Assembly: GCA_021405325.1 (NCBI GenBank)
Contig: QWII01000126.1
Location: 1-64,000 of the forward strand
Length of the DNA: 64,000 nt
DNA from: Caldilinea sp. CFX5
GTDB taxonomy: Bacteria > Chloroflexota > Anaerolineae > Caldilineales > Caldilineaceae
Reading direction: 5' to 3'
This document shows, in pieces, positions 5,990 through 36,616 of this stretch. The notes below the pieces were generated by a model that worked only from the letters and a program-made list of their open reading frames with translations, was not told the origin of the DNA and did not search any database. The position numbers were made by a program, and so were the translations under genes. The first letter of the stretch is position 1, and every line of letters begins with the position of its first letter.

Positions 5990-7267
5990 TCAATTAGCAT
6001 AGCTATACCCGTCCGACGCGTGCAACCTCTGACAATATTTCCAACTAATGCCATCTGTCTTGCCAACCAAAAAACTTCCTTTGGCACGTACCGCAACCCG
6101 ACCAGTATGGACGCCTTTGTTTTTGCCGGTTGGGACAATCGCCCGGACAATATCGCCCGTCTGAAAGCCCTTGACAATGCGGTTTTGCTTTGCCCCTGTG
6201 CGCGGAAAACCGTACTTGTCCGGTCGGCACATTTGCCTGGACTGCCTACCAACGGCTTTGATTACCAGCGGCTTTTGTTCTGGGCAAAGACTGACCGATT
6301 GCCCAGACTGGCCGACGCAAGCGGCGTCGATCCAGTGGGCTTTAGGATAGCCGTTGGTTGTGCGGTTAAACTTTGTCCGACCGCCCGTTCCAATTTCGAC
6401 GGGTAAACCAGTTGCATCAAACATCCGCCAGACAGCCCAACGGACAGAGTTAACCGCGCTGGCGTCTTTTAGCGGCTTCTTGGCAAGGGCTTGCACGCCG
6501 GGATGACCAAACTCAGCAGCGGTTTGATTGCCCTTGCGCTGATTGCAACCATGACAAGCCAGACAGAGATTACTCACTCGGCTGGAACCGCCCCGGCTTT
6601 TCGGCGTGATATGTTCGATCTCTAGCGGGATGTCGGTACTCCCGCAATAGCAGCACTTCCGGTCAAACTTTTCGAGAAGATATTCCCGCACTTCGTAGCC
6701 TTGCAATTCGCCTTGCTGATATTCAACGCCGCTAATTTCTGCATCCTGCATGAGTTGGGTATCGAATTGCACCAATTCCATGCTGATCGACTGGACATTG
6801 CACAGCTTGAGAAAGCGTACTAGCCACGTTTGTAGGTTGTTGACCCGACTCTGCAAGGATGGCGCTAACCAACCCTTTGGGTCGCACCCAGGGGGTTCCC
6901 GCCTCCGGGCGCGGTTGTTGAATCGCGGTTGGCGATAGCGGGTTTTGCGCTGGCGTCTACCGCGGCGAATTGCACGGCGGCTTTCTAGCGCGTTCTTGAT
7001 CTGTTGCCCGCGGTGTTCCAGTTCAGCCGCAAAGACAACCGTATCGCCCTGGACTAATGCAAGGCCGGTTGTCTTACTGCCGGGGTCAACCTTGACGGTG
7101 ACAGGGGCCGGTTCTGCATCTGGCTTGGCTTCCTTCAAAATTATAGTGAAGGGAAATCTACGATAGACCGCGGCTTTTCCGTCGTCTAGCATTTGACGCG
7201 CTCGCACTGGCCGGCATGGCGTTAGCGGTCTCTTGTTCGTATCTAGTACAAAAACTCGGTTCGGCAT
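5990..7267 (-). CDS. iscB: IscB RNA-guided nuclease (RuvC/HNH, Cas9 ancestor family)
   Basis: 425 residues from the ATG at 7267; a longer frame exists but the family N-terminus starts here (MPNRVFVLDTNKRPLTPC, the PLMP domain). In order: RuvC-I with the catalytic aspartate in VKVDPGSKTTGLAL (about residue 70), an arginine-rich bridge helix (RRAIRRGRRQRKTRYRQPRF), RuvC-II with the glutamate in ISMELVQF, an HNH domain with two CxxC-like zinc pairs and IEHITPKSRGGS followed by NLCLACHGCNQRKGN, and RuvC-III with HWIDAACVG. All expected catalytic residues are present, so the nuclease looks intact. IscB proteins cut DNA guided by an omega RNA made from the DNA just upstream of the gene, which is present here. 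Length is normal for the family. No adjacent transposase. Confidence 0.93.
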   Translation of the reverse strand: MPNRVFVLDTNKRPLTPCRPVRARQMLDDGKAAVYRRFPFTIILKEAKPDAEPAPVTVKVDPGSKTTGLALVQGDTVVFAAELEHRGQQIKNALESRRAIRRGRRQRKTRYRQPRFNNRARRREPPGCDPKGWLAPSLQSRVNNLQTWLVRFLKLCNVQSISMELVQFDTQLMQDAEISGVEYQQGELQGYEVREYLLEKFDRKCCYCGSTDIPLEIEHITPKSRGGSSRVSNLCLACHGCNQRKGNQTAAEFGHPGVQALAKKPLKDASAVNSVRWAVWRMFDATGLPVEIGTGGRTKFNRTTNGYPKAHWIDAACVGQSGQSVSLCPEQKPLVIKAVGRQSRQMCRPDKYGFPRTGAKQNRIVKGFQTGDIVRAIVPTGKNKGVHTGRVAVRAKGSFLVGKTDGISWKYCQRLHASDGYSYAN

Positions 7268-7490
7268 TGATAGCCTTTCAGCCCTTGCGGGCGTAATGTT
7301 CCCCTCGGAAATGGTAGAAAAGCTTTTTGCATCCAACACACTGTTGTCTTCCCAAAGACCTCGCTTAATGTTGGACAGCAGAGCCAGAAGCTAGGGCGTC
7401 ACCGCTGGGTGCTATGACCTTTCTAACGTAGCTTTCGCTGATCCTGGTAAATTACTTTGCGGCTGAAGCGCTCGAACTTTTAGGTTTTTC
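7268..7490 (-). ncRNA. omega RNA (HEARO RNA) scaffold of IscB
   Basis: The 220 bases directly upstream of iscB contain no ORF but several clear hairpins when read on the minus strand: CTTTTAG/CTAAAAG with a 6-base loop at the distal end, AGC-GAAA-GCT, TCCAACA/TGTTGGA enclosing GTCTT/AAGAC, and GCCC-GCAA-GGGC just before the ribosome site. This place and style match the omega/HEARO RNAs known to sit 5' of iscB. In the family the guide is the 5' extension of this RNA, taken from sequence outside the element; which bases that is here depends on the exact left end, which I cannot fix. Confidence 0.72.
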
Positions 7491-7496
7491 TAAAAG

Positions 7497-7517
7497 CCCA
7501 CGTGCTTCAGCCGTGGG
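7497..7517 (-). repeat. left-end hairpin of the IscB element
   Basis: CCCACG and CGTGGG pair around a 9-base loop. It lies between the omega RNA region and the stop codon (7522-7524) of the peroxidase-like gene. Together with 5919-5938 it brackets the element. Confidence 0.65.
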
Positions 7518-7521
7518 ATAT

Positions 7522-8106
7522 TTACGATTGACGTGTAGTTGCCACCGGCTCGCCCAACGTTTGCATTAAGCGATTGGCCCAAGCGAACATGGCGGTGGCG
7601 TGGGTGAGATCGAGGATTTCCTGGTCGGTCAACCCCAACTGGCGCAAGGGGGTGAGATCGTCGCTGGTCAAAGCTGAGGGGGCGCGGGTCAATTTGACGG
7701 CGAAGTCCACAATGGCCCGTTCCCGTGGCGGCAATCCAGCTTCGACGCCTTCGGCGATCAGCCGTTGCATGATTTCCGGGCGTTTGGTTAATTGAATATA
7801 GCGCTGGATGTGGACAGATGCACAGTAGACGCAACCATTGACCCGTGAAACTGCCACCGCCGCCAACTCGCGATCCGCTCGTGGCAACCCTCTGGGGCCA
7901 TACATAATGGCATTGTAGAGCCGCGACCGCTCCCGTAGCACATCGACATCACGCACCAGCAGCAGATAGTATGGCGACGTTTTGGCTGTGGGAGTGCTTT
8001 CTTCCAGCACGGCGATCTGTGCGGGCGTTGCCGTTTCCAGGGCAATCGGGTCAAGCCAGGCGCGCCAATCGACGGGGTCAGCGGTAAATTTGAGTTTCTC
8101 TGCCAT
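7522..8106 (-). CDS. peroxidase-related carboxymuconolactone-decarboxylase-fold protein (Avi_7169-like)
   Basis: 194 residues. The motif NGCVYCASVHIQR near residue 90-102 is the CxxC...H active site of AhpD-like alkylhydroperoxidases; it sits in the all-helical CMD fold. Related proteins with this arrangement occur as a pair with a second CMD protein lacking the cysteines, next to a luciferase-like monooxygenase, and that is the arrangement seen here (8106-8621 and 9818-10828). Start ATG overlaps the stop of the upstream partner by one base (TAATG), so translation is coupled. The stop codon is immediately beside the left end of the IscB element. Substrate unknown; an oxidative-stress role is inferred. 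Confidence 0.82.
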   Translation of the reverse strand: MAEKLKFTADPVDWRAWLDPIALETATPAQIAVLEESTPTAKTSPYYLLLVRDVDVLRERSRLYNAIMYGPRGLPRADRELAAVAVSRVNGCVYCASVHIQRYIQLTKRPEIMQRLIAEGVEAGLPPRERAIVDFAVKLTRAPSALTSDDLTPLRQLGLTDQEILDLTHATAMFAWANRLMQTLGEPVATTRQS

Positions 8107-26238: not shown

Positions 26239-27159
26239 TTACCAGCCGCGATGGGCCATCTTCTCCTGTTCCGAGAGGGTGTCGAGGTTGATGCCGACCA
26301 TCGGTTCGCCCAGGTCTTCGCTGATTTCGGCGAGGATCTTGGGGTCGTTGTAGTGGGTGACGGCTTGGACAATGGCGAGGGCGCGCTTGGCCGGGTTGCC
26401 GCTCTTGAAGATGCCGGAGCCGACAAAGACGCCATCGACCCCCAGTTGCATCATGAGCGCCGCATCCGCCGGGGTGGCGACGCCGCCAGCAGCAAAGTTG
26501 ACCACGGGTAATTTGCCCAGTTCGGCGGTCTGCTTGACCAGATCGTAGGGCGCCTGAATGTTCTTGGCGTAGGCGAAGAGTTCGTCTTCGTCCATGCACT
26601 TGATGCGGCGAATTTCGCCCATAACGGTGCGGGCGTGGCGAACGGCTTCGACGACGTTGCCGGTGCCGGCTTCGCCCTTGGTGCGGATCATGGCCGCGCC
26701 TTCGGCGACGCGGCGTAACGCTTCTCCCAGGTTGCGGCAACCACAGACAAAGGGCACCTTGAACTTGTGCTTGTTGATATGGTTGTCTTCATCGGCGGGG
26801 GTCAAGACTTCGCTTTCGTCCACATAGTCTACGCCCAGCGCTTCCAGAATTTGGGCCTCGACAATGTGGCCAATGCGCGCCTTCGCCATCACGGGGATGG
26901 TCACGGCGCTGATGATCTCCTTGATCTTGCGCGGGTCGCTCATACGGGCCACGCCGCCATCTTTGCGGATGTCCGCCGGGACGCGTTCCAACGCCATGAC
27001 GGCGCAGGCGCCGGCTTCTTCGGCAATGCGCGCCTGTTCCGCCGTGACCACATCCATAATCACGCCGCCCTTGAGCATCTGCGCCAGGCCGACTTTGACG
27101 GCAAAGGTGCCGGTGTCGGCGCCCTGAACTTTTCCGTTGCTGCCATTGTTACTACTCAT
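26239..27159 (-). CDS. pdxS: pyridoxal 5'-phosphate synthase lyase subunit
   Basis: 306 residues, slightly longer at the N-terminus than usual. [41 protein letters not shown] is the beginning of the barrel; [33 protein letters not shown] contains the lysine and surrounding acids of the PLP-forming site, and [20 protein letters not shown] is the phosphate-binding loop. It makes PLP directly from ribulose or ribose 5-phosphate, glyceraldehyde 3-phosphate and ammonia from PdxT. GGAGGGGGAA precedes the ATG. Followed by pdxT. Confidence 0.98.
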
Positions 27160-31087: not shown

Positions 31088-31873
31088 TTATATCAACACG
31101 TCCTTATCTGTGCTGTGCCGTTCCGTTCTGTGCCGTTCAGTTCTATGCTGTTCAGTAATACCGGTGTAATCAAAGGCGTAGCCAACGCCATAATGGCTGA
31201 CCAGGCGCCGTGGCCGCCGGGGATCATGCTCGATTTTCCGGCGCAAACGCCAGACCAGGGTCTGTAGATCAGGAAGGTGATCGTGGTCTGATGCGTTTCC
31301 CAACGCCGTCAAAAGTTGTTGGTGGGAAAGAATGCGACCGGCGTTGGCGATCAGATAGATCAAGAGTTGGTATTCGACAGCGCTCAGTTGATGAACTACT
31401 TTGTCCAGAATCACTTGATACTGAAGATGGTCGACGATGAGATCAGCCGGCGCAGAGGGGGTTGCCGTCAGCAGCGCCGGCTGTGGCGCCAGTTGCTGCT
31501 GCTGTTGTAGCGTTTGTTGGATATGGGCCAATAACGTTGCCGGTTGTATGGGGCGCGCCAACGTAGTGATGGCCGTATCGGTCGCTAAAAGTGCATCACT
31601 GCCATACGCCCCTACTTCGCGCAGGAGAAGAATGGGCGTATCGGCAAAATTACGAATGCGCTGGCACACCTGTTCACAGGAAAGATCCGTCAGGGCGTCA
31701 TGGAGAATGAGCAGATCAGGTTTCTGCCCATAGAAGAGACGCAGCCCTTCCAACCCGGTAAATGCGGTATAGAGATTATAACCGTGGATCGACGCAATCA
31801 ATTGCGCCACTTGTTGGTCGGTCAACAAATGGCTAATGAGCAGAAGAATGCTAACAACAAGACCCATACACAT
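31088..31873 (-). CDS. OmpR-type regulator with degenerate receiver
   Basis: 261 residues from ATG 31873, which has GGAGG nine bases upstream. The receiver-like part SILLLISHLLTDQQVAQLIA... lacks the N-terminal acidic pair, and the strand that normally ends in the phospho-acceptor reads PDLLILHDALTD, with His where Asp is expected, so phosphorylation of the usual residue is unlikely. The winged helix (HQLSAVEYQLLIYLIANAGRILSHQQLL, LQTLVWRLRRKIE, YGVGYAFDY) is complete. A tandem CRERHSTE-like run, EQHRTERHRTERHSTD, ends the protein, from a short DNA repeat (CGGCACAGAACGG-type). Forms a pair with 30329-31054. Confidence 0.75.
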   Translation of the reverse strand: MCMGLVVSILLLISHLLTDQQVAQLIASIHGYNLYTAFTGLEGLRLFYGQKPDLLILHDALTDLSCEQVCQRIRNFADTPILLLREVGAYGSDALLATDTAITTLARPIQPATLLAHIQQTLQQQQQLAPQPALLTATPSAPADLIVDHLQYQVILDKVVHQLSAVEYQLLIYLIANAGRILSHQQLLTALGNASDHDHLPDLQTLVWRLRRKIEHDPRRPRRLVSHYGVGYAFDYTGITEQHRTERHRTERHSTDKDVLI

Positions 31874-32892: not shown

Positions 32893-33369
32893 ATGAGTAC
32901 ACGGAAACTGGCCAAACCGGTTGGCCTCTATTTTGATGAATTTGAAATCGGCGACCAGGTGGAAAGCGTCGGGCGCACCATCACCGAAACCGACATTGTC
33001 AACTTTGCCGGCATCTCCGGCGACTGGAACTTGATCCACTCCGACGCTGAGTATAGCAAAACGCAGATGTTCGGCCAACGCGTGGCCCACGGCCTCTTGA
33101 TCCTGAGCATTGCCAGCGGACAGGCGGTGCGCCTCGGCTTTATGGAAGATACGATCATGGCCTTTCGCGGCCTGGAATGGAAATTTGTCAAGCCAGTCTT
33201 GATCGGCGACACCATCCGTCTGCGCGTCACCATTGAAGAGAAAAAGGAAATGCGGCGTATGGGCGGCGGTCTGGTCAACTTCAAGATGGAAGTAATCAAC
33301 CAGAACAACGAAGTCTGCCAGCGCGGCAACTGGGATATTCTCTGCAAAAGCCGCCAAGTTGAACAGTGA
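32893..33369 (+). CDS. MaoC-like dehydratase (hot-dog fold)
   Basis: 158 residues. FEIGDQVESVGRTITETDIVNFAGISGDWNLIHSDAEYSKTQMFG has the hydratase 2 motif (A/S)G D x N x x H, with D and H catalytic, and QRVAHGLLILSIASGQAV is the matching second strand. The fold hydrates enoyl-CoA or related thioesters. GGAAGGAAGC precedes the ATG. Its stop codon overlaps the start of the octamer repeat (33364-33455). Confidence 0.9.
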   Translation: MSTRKLAKPVGLYFDEFEIGDQVESVGRTITETDIVNFAGISGDWNLIHSDAEYSKTQMFGQRVAHGLLILSIASGQAVRLGFMEDTIMAFRGLEWKFVKPVLIGDTIRLRVTIEEKKEMRRMGGGLVNFKMEVINQNNEVCQRGNWDILCKSRQVEQ

Positions 33370-33455
33370 GACAGTGAGACAGTGAGACAGTAAGACAGTC
33401 AATCAGGGTATAGCAGACTGACCGACTGTCTCACTGTCTCACTGTCTCACTGACC
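33364..33455. repeat. octamer-repeat hairpin (CAGTGAGA / CTGTCTCA units)
   Basis: CAGTGAGA repeats and CTGTCTCA repeats face each other. It covers the MaoC stop codon and ends 11 bases before the promoter of the sulfonate operon. Confidence 0.88.
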
Positions 33456-33465
33456 CACCATAGAT

Positions 33466-33494
33466 TTGACAGTTTGACGCTACTCAACTATGAT
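33466..33494 (+). promoter_or_regulatory. strong sigma-70-type promoter of the sulfonate ABC operon
   Basis: TTGACA, exactly 17 bases, TATGAT: a near-consensus promoter. Transcription would start near 33501 and give a 350-base leader before the ATPase gene. Confidence 0.85.
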
Positions 33495-33537
33495 TTGCAA
33501 CTGTTATTTTCATTACCATTGCATCTAAGGATCAATC

Positions 33538-33642
33538 ATGTTCGCCCGGCGCCCGGTTTGTTGCCAATTTGTTTGCTGCTGTTGTTGCTGTTGTCCAGAG
33601 CGGAGACAGGGGTCTTCGTCGCTGGCGCGCGGCACTGCCTAG
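33538..33642 (+). CDS. poly-cysteine leader peptide (34 aa)
   Basis: ATG with AAGG seven bases upstream, 34 codons, stop TAG. Codons 8-19 read CCQFVCCCCCCC: nine Cys codons in twelve, seven of them in a row, followed by Pro. The rest is Arg/Ser/Gly-rich (MFARRPV before, PERRQGSSSLARGTA after). The peptide is in a leader between a strong promoter and a terminator (33709-33745), upstream of an ABC operon for sulfur compounds. The design is that of amino-acid-responsive attenuators: a ribosome stalled for lack of Cys-tRNA would alter leader folding. Poly-Cys leader peptides with this role are known from mycobacteria, not to my knowledge from Chloroflexota. Confidence 0.8.
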   Translation: MFARRPVCCQFVCCCCCCCPERRQGSSSLARGTA

Positions 33643-33673
33643 CCAGAACGAACGAAAACGCCACTGTCTCTGC
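33600..33673 (+). promoter_or_regulatory. leader stem sensitive to ribosome position
   Basis: GCGGAGACAG (33600-33609) pairs over 10 bp, one G-U, with 33664-33673. It starts six bases after the last Cys codon, so a ribosome stalled on the Cys run would cover its 5' arm. I could not find a convincing competing antiterminator. Confidence 0.5.
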
Positions 33674-33708
33674 GCAAACAGGGATGGTGGCCATAAAAGA
33701 GAGCAACG

Positions 33709-33745
33709 AGCGCTCAGGTCACGCTGACCTGGGCGCTTTTTATTT
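33709..33745 (+). terminator. intrinsic terminator in the leader
   Basis: AGCGCTCAGGTCA (33709-33721) and 33725-33737 form a 13-bp stem with one G-U, loop CGC, then CTTTTTATTT. It lies 67 bases after the leader stop and 110 before the ATPase start. Confidence 0.85.
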
Positions 33746-33759
33746 GGCCCTCTCCTAGC

Positions 33760-33830
33760 CTCCCCAAAAGGGGAGGAACCGTTGGCGCCGTGATAGCCCC
33801 CTCCCTGTTGGGGAGGGCTGGGGTGGGGCG
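33760..33830. repeat. two G/C-run hairpins before the ATPase gene
   Basis: CCTCCCCAAAAGGGGAGG (33759-33776) and CCCTCCCTGTTGGGGAGGG (33801-33819) are short palindromes of the type widely dispersed in some genomes. The second lies close to the ribosome site region of the ATPase gene. Confidence 0.6.
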
Positions 33831-33854
33831 CACTGTCAAAGATCGAGGAACGTT

Positions 33855-34643
33855 ATGTCAGAATCAGTTACCTTTGCGCGCATCAACAAAAGCTTTACAC
33901 CAGTGCAAGCCATCGGCGGCTCATCAAGTGCGGCAGTCACACCGGTCTTGACCAAAATCGATCTGCAAATTCGCGCCGGTGAATTTGTCGCCATTGTCGG
34001 GCCGAGCGGCTGCGGCAAATCGACCTTGCTGCGCCTGATCGCCGGTCTCGAACAGCCGTCGGGCGGGACGGTGGCGATTGGCGACCGCCCCGTGCAAGGG
34101 GTGGATCGGCGCTGCGCCCTCATGTTTCAGGAGCCGCGCCTCTTGCCCTGGAAGACGATTCGCCAGAATGTGCAACTGGCCGTGCGTGGGGAAGCGAAGG
34201 CCCATTCGGAACAGTGGCTGGCGCAGGTGGGTTTGCAGGGTTTTGTCGATGCCCTGCCCCACCAACTCTCCGGCGGCATGGCGCAGCGGGCGGCGTTGGC
34301 CCGTGCCTTGGTCGGACGCCCCCAAGTTTTGCTGTTGGACGAACCCTTTGCTGCGCTCGATGCCCTGACCAAGTTGCAAATGCAGGACTTGCTGATCGAA
34401 ACGGTGCAAGCCGCCGGCGCGACGGTAGTTATGGTGACGCATGATATTGACGAAGCGGTTTACCTGGCCGATCGCGTCGTCATTTTAGGCCAGCGTCCGG
34501 CCACGATTGTCGCCAGCTACCACTCCACCCTGCCCCGTCCCCGCGACCGCAGCCACCCGGAGTTAGCAGGATTGCGTAGTCAAATTCTAGAGCATTTTGG
34601 TCTGGCGCACCATAAAGTCGCGCCGCCTACAGAGATTTTTTAA
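33855..34643 (+). CDS. ABC transporter ATPase, nitrate/sulfonate/taurine type
   Basis: 262 residues. GPSGCGKSTLLRLIAG is Walker A; LSGGMAQRAALARALVGRP the signature; VLLLDEPFAALDALTKLQMQ Walker B with D-loop; VTHDIDEAVYLADRVVIL the H-loop. This is the SsuB/TauB/NrtD class. With the following binding protein and permease it makes a complete importer for aliphatic sulfonates, taurine or a related anion. Sulfur supply is favoured by the Cys leader peptide upstream, not by the ATPase itself. The leader suggests that its expression depends on cysteine level. A terminator-like hairpin follows at 34656-34682. Confidence 0.92.
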   Translation: MSESVTFARINKSFTPVQAIGGSSSAAVTPVLTKIDLQIRAGEFVAIVGPSGCGKSTLLRLIAGLEQPSGGTVAIGDRPVQGVDRRCALMFQEPRLLPWKTIRQNVQLAVRGEAKAHSEQWLAQVGLQGFVDALPHQLSGGMAQRAALARALVGRPQVLLLDEPFAALDALTKLQMQDLLIETVQAAGATVVMVTHDIDEAVYLADRVVILGQRPATIVASYHSTLPRPRDRSHPELAGLRSQILEHFGLAHHKVAPPTEIF

Positions 34644-34655
34644 CAGTGGTTTTTT

Positions 34656-34682
34656 AACGCCGGTTTTTTGGGGCGTTATTTT
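34656..34682 (+). terminator. terminator-like hairpin between ATPase and binding protein
   Basis: AACGCC and GGCGTT pair around ten bases and are followed by ATTTTTT. It may lower expression of downstream genes or, because binding protein is needed most, mark a second start; partial read-through is likely. Confidence 0.6.
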
Positions 34683-34730: not shown

Positions 34731-35741
34731 ATGAAATTACGGATTTTGCTGCCCTTGTTCCTCTGCCTATCCTTATTGTTGACCGCCTGTCCTGCACCCG
34801 CGTCGCCAGGCGCCGCACCGGCCGCCGCTGAAGGGGCGGCCAAACCGGAGGTGATCCGCCTCGACTATGCCTATTACAACCCCAGCAGCCTTGTGTTACG
34901 TAAGTTTGGCTGGCTGGAAGAGGAACTGGCGAAAGAGAATATTCAGGTCGAATGGGTATTGAGCGCCGGCAGCAACAAAGCCAACGAATTCCTGCGCTCG
35001 GAAGCCATCGACTTTGGCTCCACCGCCGGCGCGGCGGCGCTGCTGGCGAAGGCCAACGGTTCGCCCATTGAAACCGTCTACATCTTCTCCAAGCCCGAAT
35101 GGACGGCCTTGGTCGTGGGCAAGGATTCGCCGCTGCAGAGTGTGGCCGAGTTGAAGGGTAAGAAGATCGCCGCCACCAAAGGCACCGACCCCTATTTCTT
35201 CCTGCTGCGTTCGCTCCATGAAAATGGCCTCTCCGCTGCCGATGTCGAAATTATCAACCTGCAACATGCCGATGGTCGCACCGCTCTGGAACGGGGTGAA
35301 GTTGATGCCTGGGCCGGTCTCGATCCTTTTATGGCGCAGACCGAGTTGGAGCAGGGGTCGCGCCTGCTTTATCGTAACATTGATTTCAACAGCTTTGGCT
35401 TCCTCAACGCCCGCAGCGAATTTACCAGCGCCTACCCGCAGCATACCGAACTTGTTCTGGCTCAATATGAGCGCGCCCGCCAGTGGATTCTGGACAATCA
35501 GGAAGAGGCGGCGCAAATTCTGGCTGATGAAGCCAAATTGTCGCTTGATGTCGCTAAGCGGGAACTCTTTGAGCGCATTGTGCTGACCGAAAGCCCCGTT
35601 CCCGGTGAAGCGCAACATGCGGCGTTGACGGCCATCATCCCCATCTTCACTGCCGAAAATCAGGTGAAGGAAGGGACCGATGTCGCCGCCGTGTTGGACG
35701 AGCTGTTTAATACCAAGTTTATTGAGGCTGTGATCAAGTAG
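34731..35741 (+). CDS. ABC transporter substrate-binding lipoprotein (sulfonate/NMT1-like)
   Basis: 336 residues. LLPLFLCLSLLLTAC is a lipoprotein signal with lipobox LTAC; the Cys is residue 20. The mature protein has the type II periplasmic fold used by SsuA/TauA: IRLDYAYYNPSSLVLRKFGWLEEELAKENI, VEWVLSAGSNKANEFLRSEAIDFGSTAGAAAL, VAELKGKKIAATKGTDPYFFLLR, and DGRTALERGEVDAWAGLDPF. This is an anion-binding family seen with sulfonate importers. In a monoderm or simple-envelope Chloroflexota it would be anchored in the membrane and face out. AAGAGAACG precedes the ATG. Confidence 0.9.
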   Translation: MKLRILLPLFLCLSLLLTACPAPASPGAAPAAAEGAAKPEVIRLDYAYYNPSSLVLRKFGWLEEELAKENIQVEWVLSAGSNKANEFLRSEAIDFGSTAGAAALLAKANGSPIETVYIFSKPEWTALVVGKDSPLQSVAELKGKKIAATKGTDPYFFLLRSLHENGLSAADVEIINLQHADGRTALERGEVDAWAGLDPFMAQTELEQGSRLLYRNIDFNSFGFLNARSEFTSAYPQHTELVLAQYERARQWILDNQEEAAQILADEAKLSLDVAKRELFERIVLTESPVPGEAQHAALTAIIPIFTAENQVKEGTDVAAVLDELFNTKFIEAVIK

Positions 35742-35764: not shown

Positions 35765-36616
35765 ATGAAGATGGAAATAGAAGAGCCATTGGTGCAAGCG
35801 CCTATGACACAGTCAGTTATCCCACCACGCATCCCTCTGCCCCAAGCGCCCAAGTGGCAGAGTGGCGGTTGGCGTCCGTGGATCTTGCCATTGCTCTTGC
35901 TGGCGCTCTGGCAGACGGTGGTGACGGTTGGCATCTTTGATCGTAGCCAACTGCCGGCGCCGCTGGATGTGGTGAGCGCCATGCGGGAGATGATCAATCG
36001 CAATGAGTTGCATATTCACATTGGCGCCAGTCTTTTGCGCGTCCTCCAAGGCTTTGCCGTCGGCTCGGCCATTGCCCTGCTCTTAGGTTTGGCGGTGGGT
36101 CTCTCACGCGAGGTGGAAAGCTTTGTTGCGCCGACATTGCAAGCGATTCGGGCAGTGCCGTCGCTGGCGTGGGTGCCGCTGCTAATTTTGTGGATGGGGA
36201 TTGATGAAGCGCCGAAGATCACGCTGGTGGCGATTGGCGCCTTCTTCCCGGTCTACACCAACCTGGTGGCCGGTATCCGAGGCATTGACCGCAAGCTGAT
36301 CGAAGTCGGTCGCGCCTATGGCTTGCGTACCCATGAGATGATCCGCCACATCCTCCTGCCGGCGGCGCTGCCCTCCCTCAGCACCGGCTTGCGCATTGGG
36401 CTGGCGCAGGGGTGGCTTTTCCTGGTGGCAGCGGAGTTGATCGCGGCGTCGCGCGGGTTGGGCTTCCTGCTCATTGACAGCCAGAACACCGGGCGTTCCG
36501 ACATTATTGTCCTCAGCATTGTGCTGCTGGCGCTGCTGGGCAAGACCAGTGACTGGCTCCTGCAACGGCTCGAACGGCGCCTGCTCCACTGGCAGGACGC
36601 CTTTAAGGGCAACTGA
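35765..36616 (+). CDS. ABC transporter permease, SsuC/TauC type
   Basis: 283 residues, six or seven membrane helices. GASLLRVLQGFAVGSAIALLLGLAVGLS near residue 80-110 is typical of SsuC; EVGRAYGLRTHEMIRHILLPAALPSLSTGLRIGLAQGW is the EAA-like loop that contacts the ATPase. Third gene of the operon, 23 bases after the binding protein. Ribosome site is weak (CCGGAA). Confidence 0.92.
   Translation: MKMEIEEPLVQAPMTQSVIPPRIPLPQAPKWQSGGWRPWILPLLLLALWQTVVTVGIFDRSQLPAPLDVVSAMREMINRNELHIHIGASLLRVLQGFAVGSAIALLLGLAVGLSREVESFVAPTLQAIRAVPSLAWVPLLILWMGIDEAPKITLVAIGAFFPVYTNLVAGIRGIDRKLIEVGRAYGLRTHEMIRHILLPAALPSLSTGLRIGLAQGWLFLVAAELIAASRGLGFLLIDSQNTGRSDIIVLSIVLLALLGKTSDWLLQRLERRLLHWQDAFKGN

Follow-up and report, generated by a model that had tools for sequence, protein, structure and literature searches.

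The DNA analysed here, termed the window, is a 64,000-nt stretch of Caldilinea sp. CFX5, and all coordinates are positions within it. It carries a three-gene ABC transporter operon, ssuBAC:

33855..34643, + strand: ssuB, ABC ATPase; best NCBIfam match is the aliphatic sulfonates ATPase model (238.8 bits, below its cut-off of 395)
34731..35741, + strand: ssuA, substrate-binding protein; TIGR01728 SsuA_fam (235.3 bits, above its cut-off of 163.5)
35765..36616, + strand: ssuC, permease; scores highest against SsuC (210.6 bits; cut-off 347, not reached)

The initial annotation had placed the ATPase, binding protein and permease in the SsuBAC/TauBAC class, and these matches agree with it, the binding protein passing its family cut-off and the other two proteins finding their best match among sulfonate models. 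Sulfonates are an established source of sulfur for cysteine, and with a sulfonate as its predicted substrate the operon would belong to cysteine metabolism. Between ssuB and ssuA, at 34655-34678, a hairpin (TAACGCC/GGCGTTA) followed by TTTTTTATT is terminator-like, with a loop that exceeds the limit of 8 set in the terminator scan.

The region upstream of ssuB contains the following elements:

33466..33494, + strand: promoter-like site TTGACA-17-TATGAT, 11/12 consensus matches; predicted transcript start ~33501
33527..33531, + strand: Shine-Dalgarno sequence (SD) AAGGA, assigned from sequence, 6 nt 5' of the leader ATG at 33538
33538..33642, + strand: leader peptide frame MFARRPVCCQFVCCCCCCCPERRQGSSSLARGTA, 34 codons, SD-led, stop codon at 33640-33642
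33559..33594, + strand: Cys codon cluster, codons 8-19, putative stall site for ribosomes starved of Cys-tRNA
33600..33673, + strand: helix A, arms GCGGAGACAG (33600-33609) and CTGTCTCTGC (33664-33673), 10 bp (one G-U), extended by inner pairs
33617..33632, + strand: weak candidate antiterminator arm, pairs from 33706, -14.5 kcal/mol, no better than shuffles
33660..33691, + strand: hairpin B, 33660-33672 with 33679-33691, -21.2 kcal/mol, mutually exclusive with helix A
33708..33738, + strand: intrinsic terminator, 14 bp, loop 3, tail TTTATTT, -24.6 kcal/mol
33747..33829, no strand assigned: palindromic repeat separating the terminator from ssuB, parts of which recur in related genomes

Cysteine occupies leader codons 8, 9 and 13-19, which is nine of twelve codons, and ~37 nt separate the predicted transcript start from the leader ATG. 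The promoter-like site ranks best among five detected between 32800 and 38000 on both strands, where shuffles average 1.9, and the promoter scan revealed no second + strand site between maoC and ssuB. Since the only promoter-like site found lies upstream of the terminator, ssuBAC would need read-through, barring an undetected promoter. The near-consensus promoter, the Cys-rich frame with its good ribosome site, the 10-bp stem and the clear intrinsic terminator reported in the initial annotation were all recovered.

A run of this kind might be a chance TGY microsatellite in an untranslated leader, with the Cys frame unused. Consistent with such an origin, a second frame of the run would give poly-Leu and the opposite strand poly-Gln; the overlapping Leu-frame ORF was rejected as a real protein as no homologue was found, which counts against it. 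The frequency of comparable frames was determined in 500-nt tiles covering the whole window on both strands (n = 254), counting frames no longer than 70 codons in which some six-codon stretch includes four or more Cys. Only one tile of the 254 passes, the one containing the leader frame; the tiling and the length limit passed over a further CCCCC run, in a 98-codon frame (31437-31733) that opposes a longer ORF on the other strand. Among 3000 dinucleotide shuffles of 33495-33854, SD-led frames with at least four Cys in six codons occurred twice and frames with at least five never, and the latter result argues against chance.

Relatives of the leader were sought in the genomes nearest to the window. 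The protein encoded at 26239-27159, which we take to be PdxS-like, has its closest counterpart (91%) in genome G332 among 396 class-sample genomes, and the order of G332, comprising 46 genomes, was searched as the nearest order. No SsuA was found in these 46 genomes at E values up to 1e-90, and SsuA protein matches at 85-96% identity came from other sources, one of them named Caldilineaceae. The leader DNA itself matched nothing in the 46 genomes, all matches falling in the repeat (33747-33831); stretches of 33747-33829 repeat in 4/46 of them, with 16 matches in G488. The SsuA-family paralogues of the nearest order (L210-L216) displayed neither a SAM riboswitch nor a credible Cys leader, a search of viral contigs gave nothing useful, and five leader peptides had no match in NCBIfam. 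The comparisons of the window's ssu leader include no close relative, which leaves room for the chance reading.

A blind scan for six consecutive TGY codons bears on the same question. Such runs occur in 29/46 nearest-order genomes at 46 places (manual count), judged by the frames covering the run and not by downstream annotation, with L141 represented by its longer run of two. The majority are antisense to longer ORFs or in another of their frames, or adjoin insertion elements, which suits a chance origin. In genome G500, a MDVVCCCCCC frame occurs three times (L151, L152 and L154), each time behind an ATPase gene that by eye looks insertion-sequence-like; these copies were rejected as leaders. 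Exactly 1/46 places is an SD-led leader, found in G561, with a TTGACA-17-TATACT promoter and a 52-codon frame whose peptide ends in SCCCCCCSCLCS. The operon lying 279 nt downstream comprises genes for assimilatory sulfite reductase (703 bits against a cut-off of 457), for CysH and for siroheme synthesis. Genomes average about one six-TGY place, yet the window's run falls in the frame of an SD-led start codon, has a promoter before it and a terminator after it, and stands 5' of a sulfur operon that in relatives has a SAM riboswitch at this place. On these grounds, and with independent Cys leaders 5' of sulfite-reductase genes, we consider a chance origin improbable, and it is very likely that the leader senses cysteine.

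Many related ssu operons carry a different sensor at this position. An SsuA alignment used to scan GTDB genomes yielded 80 loci. Within two sets of scanned loci the SAM-I riboswitch (Rfam RF00162) was matched in 10/12 and 8/12, the misses being L011, L012, L017, L018, L029 and L030; it was matched in 4/6 further ssu loci (misses L095 and L097), some from genomes already scanned, giving 22 relatives' loci overall, some of them duplicates. All 14 scanned Chloroflexota/Thermomicrobiota loci with ssuBAC gene order, among which L019 is cut off after ssuA, have SAM-I at the same place. SAM-I in these loci thereby shares operon and position with the window's Cys leader, and in L001 a terminator-like hairpin, identified by eye, stands behind the riboswitch, comparable to the terminator of the window. 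They differ in that SAM-I is a SAM-binding aptamer, which the window is without: no SAM-I was found across the 64-kb window with Rfam, and a riboswitch hidden in the window was rejected since RF00162 was found neither window-wide nor in the leader at E values up to 10. As a control, at least three Cys in six codons within 650 nt upstream were present in 1/14 of the SAM-I loci of the same gene order (L001). The Cys-rich frame of L045 was rejected as a leader, as it sits 5' of that locus's own SAM riboswitch. In Bacillales, Clostridiaceae and Chloroflexi, various genes controlled by SAM riboswitches are described as probably functioning in cysteine/methionine metabolism or transport (PMC3766115).

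In a midpoint-rooted tree of 38 SsuA proteins, the window falls in a group of 11 whose other ten members all belong to SAM-I operons, with a support of 92/87, below the tool's star threshold. Because SAM-I is absent from the window although its SsuA groups with SAM-I operons, the sensor on ssuBAC was probably exchanged, SAM-I for a Cys leader, and riboswitch loss in the window's lineage is the simplest reading of the tree. Related Cys-rich short frames (..PSSCGCCPCMPRAGA and ..TSPCGCCCMPRAGA) were also observed 5' of a homologous ssu operon in Actinotalea (Actinomycetota; L055, 3801-3890, and L068, 275-478), and given these frames Cys leaders of ssu operons may have more than one origin.

Sulfite-reductase genes provide a second, larger set of loci. 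Sulfite-reductase relatives occur in 5/46 nearest-order and 16/396 class-sample genomes, giving 18 distinct loci of which the 500 nt upstream were examined; the nine proteins tested further all score above the assimilatory sulfite reductase cut-off. Frames with at least three Cys in six codons lie upstream of 14/18 loci (antisense 0/18; shuffles mean 2.21, max 6), frames with at least four upstream of 11/18 (antisense 0/18; shuffles mean 0.14, max 1), and SD-led frames with at least four upstream of 5/18 (shuffles 0.01, max 1). The frame of L231 was discounted because a separate 188-codon + strand frame, which extends as far as the gene, encloses it, and without L231 the first two counts become 13/18 and 10/18. 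In control tiles of real sequence the same thresholds were reached in 69/876 and 1/876 cases, respectively. Four loci (L224, L226, L233 and L234) have no Cys-rich frame in the 500 nt upstream, and the Cys frames of L222, L225, L232 and L235 have a longer open frame on the opposite strand.

Two forms of leader were observed at these loci. The five nearest-order loci, L218-L222, have leaders of 32-52 codons with Cys codons at or adjoining the end, preceded in four of the five by a TTGACA-17-TATnCT promoter, and the terminator scan found no strong terminator between leader and gene. L218 and L219 share a hairpin that begins two bases into the stop codon of the leader and is built from different paired bases. 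The other form, seen in 8/13 leader-bearing loci (L223, L225, L227, L228, L229, L230, L232 and L235), has a terminator with a T tract 22-51 nt past the stop codon; the window leader is of this form, its terminator starting 65 nt past the stop codon. Four loci (L227, L228, L229 and L230) present the tandem order leader-terminator-leader-terminator-gene; L227, L228 and L230 are near-identical (95% mean column identity) and L229 differs in sequence. The limits of leaders and terminators in these modules were set by eye, as were the choices of the L229 terminator, omitted by the scan, and of the L235 terminator used in the antiterminator test, for which the scan gave a shorter one.

That test considered the RNA from the first Cys codons to the terminator and its pairing with the terminator 5' arm. 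The best antiterminator beats at least 97% of shuffles in 8/12 modules, or 5/8 after merging near-identical ones; L225, L232, module 2 of L229 and module 2 of L228 gave no significant antiterminator, and L228 has a C in place of a paired T of its near-twins. In the significant modules the antiterminator 5' arm lies -28 to +33 nt from the leader stop codon and begins 26-38 nt past the first Cys codon, across or near the stop codon. This placement is consistent with classical attenuation logic, because the arm would clear a ribosome stalled on the Cys codons and would be covered by one at the stop codon.

The RNA folds of the window leader resolve the picture in part. The segment 33596-33695 folds better than its shuffles (z -3.1); the longer segment 33541-33700 does not (z -1.0). 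Helix A including its inner pairs (33598-33675) reaches -40.3 kcal/mol. An inverted array of TGAGACAG units at 33367-33455, between maoC and the promoter, contains GAGACAG/CTGTCTC words that are also the core of helix A, and folding of 33365-33460 gives -59.8 kcal/mol; in view of the shared words, helix A may be derived from a repeat. The effect of a ribosome was modelled by blocking 17 nt before and 15 nt after a codon start (12 at the stop codon) in a transcript folded to 33745. Pair probabilities in helix A then peak at 0.67 in the free transcript and at 0.96 once a ribosome occupies the stop codon; the maximum is 0.32 for a ribosome at C13 and 0.39 for one at C16, and it falls to 0 at C19. 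Stalling is thereby computed to shift helix A toward hairpin B, and these folds agree with the proposal of the initial annotation that a stalled ribosome would disrupt the 10-bp stem, which is weaker at C13 and C16, lost at C19 and most probable when the ribosome has reached the stop codon.

The folds of the ribosome-occupied leader follow the proposal as far as the stem, which responds to ribosome position, but not as far as the terminator, which forms in every state: its core pairs have a probability of 1.0 in all five states folded to 33745. Hairpin B and the terminator do not overlap, and the best rival pairing for the terminator 5' arm amounts to -17.9 kcal/mol versus -24.6 kcal/mol for the terminator. 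The candidate arm at 33617-33632 lies 23 to 8 nt 5' of the stop codon, at about the position of the arms in the sulfite-reductase modules. When the best pairing with the terminator 5' arm was compared with shuffles, 255/300 were as good in one test and a fraction of 0.75 of 500 in a second; no candidate antiterminator beats shuffles, and the initial annotation had likewise not resolved the antiterminator arm. The class of device is well supported, in contrast to the exact switch of the window copy.

Two mutually exclusive folds in a segment more stable than its shuffles would also suit a metabolite riboswitch of a new class that regulates the terminator, the short frame being incidental. Rfam searches speak against it, as no family reached its gathering score in the leader and, at E values up to 10 over the leader proper, all matches were far below gathering, the best on the + strand being proV RNA with 19.9 of 88.5 bits. 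No T-box was found in the whole window, or at E values up to 10 over 33380-33900. Such a riboswitch would moreover make the Cys frame a coincidence, and we regard it as very improbable.

In the reading we prefer, ribosome-mediated attenuation responds to charged Cys-tRNA and governs ssuBAC through the terminator at 33708; we assign this reading a probability of about two in three. Its elements can be read from the DNA: the promoter-like site, the SD, the Cys run, the terminator, the operon, the absence of SAM-I and the leader-terminator modules of the class. The trp, his and leu leader-peptide attenuators combine codons of the end product, a terminator and the operon of that pathway, and the window shares all three: a short frame, predicted to be translated, with a run of codons for the presumed regulating amino acid, and an intrinsic terminator (33708-33738) between the leader and the first gene of a predicted sulfur operon. 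It differs from them in that an antiterminator was not found in the window copy. Transcription would begin at ~33501 and a ribosome would load at 33538, as the SD suggests. With ample Cys-tRNA the ribosome would clear the nine Cys codons and end at 33640-33642, and with a ribosome at the stop codon the terminator at 33708-33738 would halt transcription. With scarce Cys-tRNA the ribosome would presumably stall on the Cys codons and the RNA beyond would fold differently, and the altered fold would let the polymerase read through into ssuBAC, if coupling and signal are as supposed.

Attenuation of sulfur uptake by Cys-tRNA, as first put forward in the initial annotation, gains from the SAM-I riboswitch at that place in 14/14 relatives and from the Cys leaders of the class. 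The folds do not connect it to termination: hairpin B misses the terminator, the terminator always forms and no antiterminator beats shuffles. The same folds, in which neither helix A nor hairpin B displaces the terminator, would fit a device in which Cys-tRNA is sensed and stalling acts on Rho, or on the ssuB message by way of its translation or stability, the terminator at 33708 being merely leaky. The window's best candidate antiterminator, no better than shuffles, fits this device as well, and so do the L218-L222 leaders, which end in or near Cys codons with no strong terminator behind, and the mycobacterial cys leaders, described as lacking conserved terminators (PMC1262725). Against it stand the plain leader-terminator layout of eight related class loci, several with a significant antiterminator, and the same layout with a strong terminator in the window, and on these grounds we find action through Rho or the ssuB message unlikely.

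Returning to the attenuator, a broader proposal joins two parts: that Chloroflexota possess a Cys-tRNA attenuation regulon in which sulfite-reductase operons are preceded by leaders and intrinsic terminators, in some cases as a series of two, and that SAM-I was displaced from the ssu operon of the window's lineage, the signal changing from SAM to charged Cys-tRNA. On balance we lean toward both parts holding together.

Cysteine leaders are known from other phyla. Mycobacteria, named in the initial annotation, do have them, and they are also in print for Propionibacterium, Bifidobacterium (PMC1262725) and Rhodobacterales cysS (PMC8632094). The polycysteine short ORFs of mycobacteria, which are leaderless, exert cysteine-responsive operon control (Canestrari 2020, as cited) and, as cited, resemble the window in having contiguous Cys codons in a short frame; the window frame is by contrast SD-led, with a predicted 5' leader of ~37 nt and a 14-bp terminator. 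In Mycobacterium, Propionibacterium acnes and Bifidobacterium longum, runs of Cys codons precede cys/cbs genes (PMC1262725), and these leaders carry their Cys codons close to the stop and lack a conserved terminator, unlike the window; the L218-L222 leaders resemble this actinobacterial form more than the window leader does. A close layout is that of uORFC-8-2 upstream of Rhodobacterales cysS, for which ribosome-mediated attenuation by Cys-tRNA was proposed (PMC8632094) and which, like the window, has a short frame with tandem Cys codons followed by an intrinsic terminator. This motif has two Cys codons, usually at 14 and 15, before cysS in alphaproteobacteria, whereas the window has nine (8, 9 and 13-19), before ssuBAC, in Chloroflexota, and so falls outside that family.

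For Chloroflexota, where the initial annotation knew of no Cys leader, we noticed no report in the literature searched, most subscription papers being outside its reach. Within that literature, what is new here is the phylum, the operon, the probable exchange for SAM-I and the tandem modules in relatives, the kind of device being already known. If the proposal is correct, ribosome-mediated cysteine attenuation with intrinsic terminators extends to a phylum for which no report was found, and one operon documents a natural swap of RNA sensors, from a SAM aptamer to a translating ribosome. The tandem Cys leader-terminator modules before sulfite reductase offer a testable case of two attenuators in series.

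Elsewhere in the window, at 5990-7525 on the - strand, a HEARO RNA (123.1 bits; 7293-7525) adjoins an RRXRR/HNH protein, a layout that we take to be that of IscB with its guide RNA.
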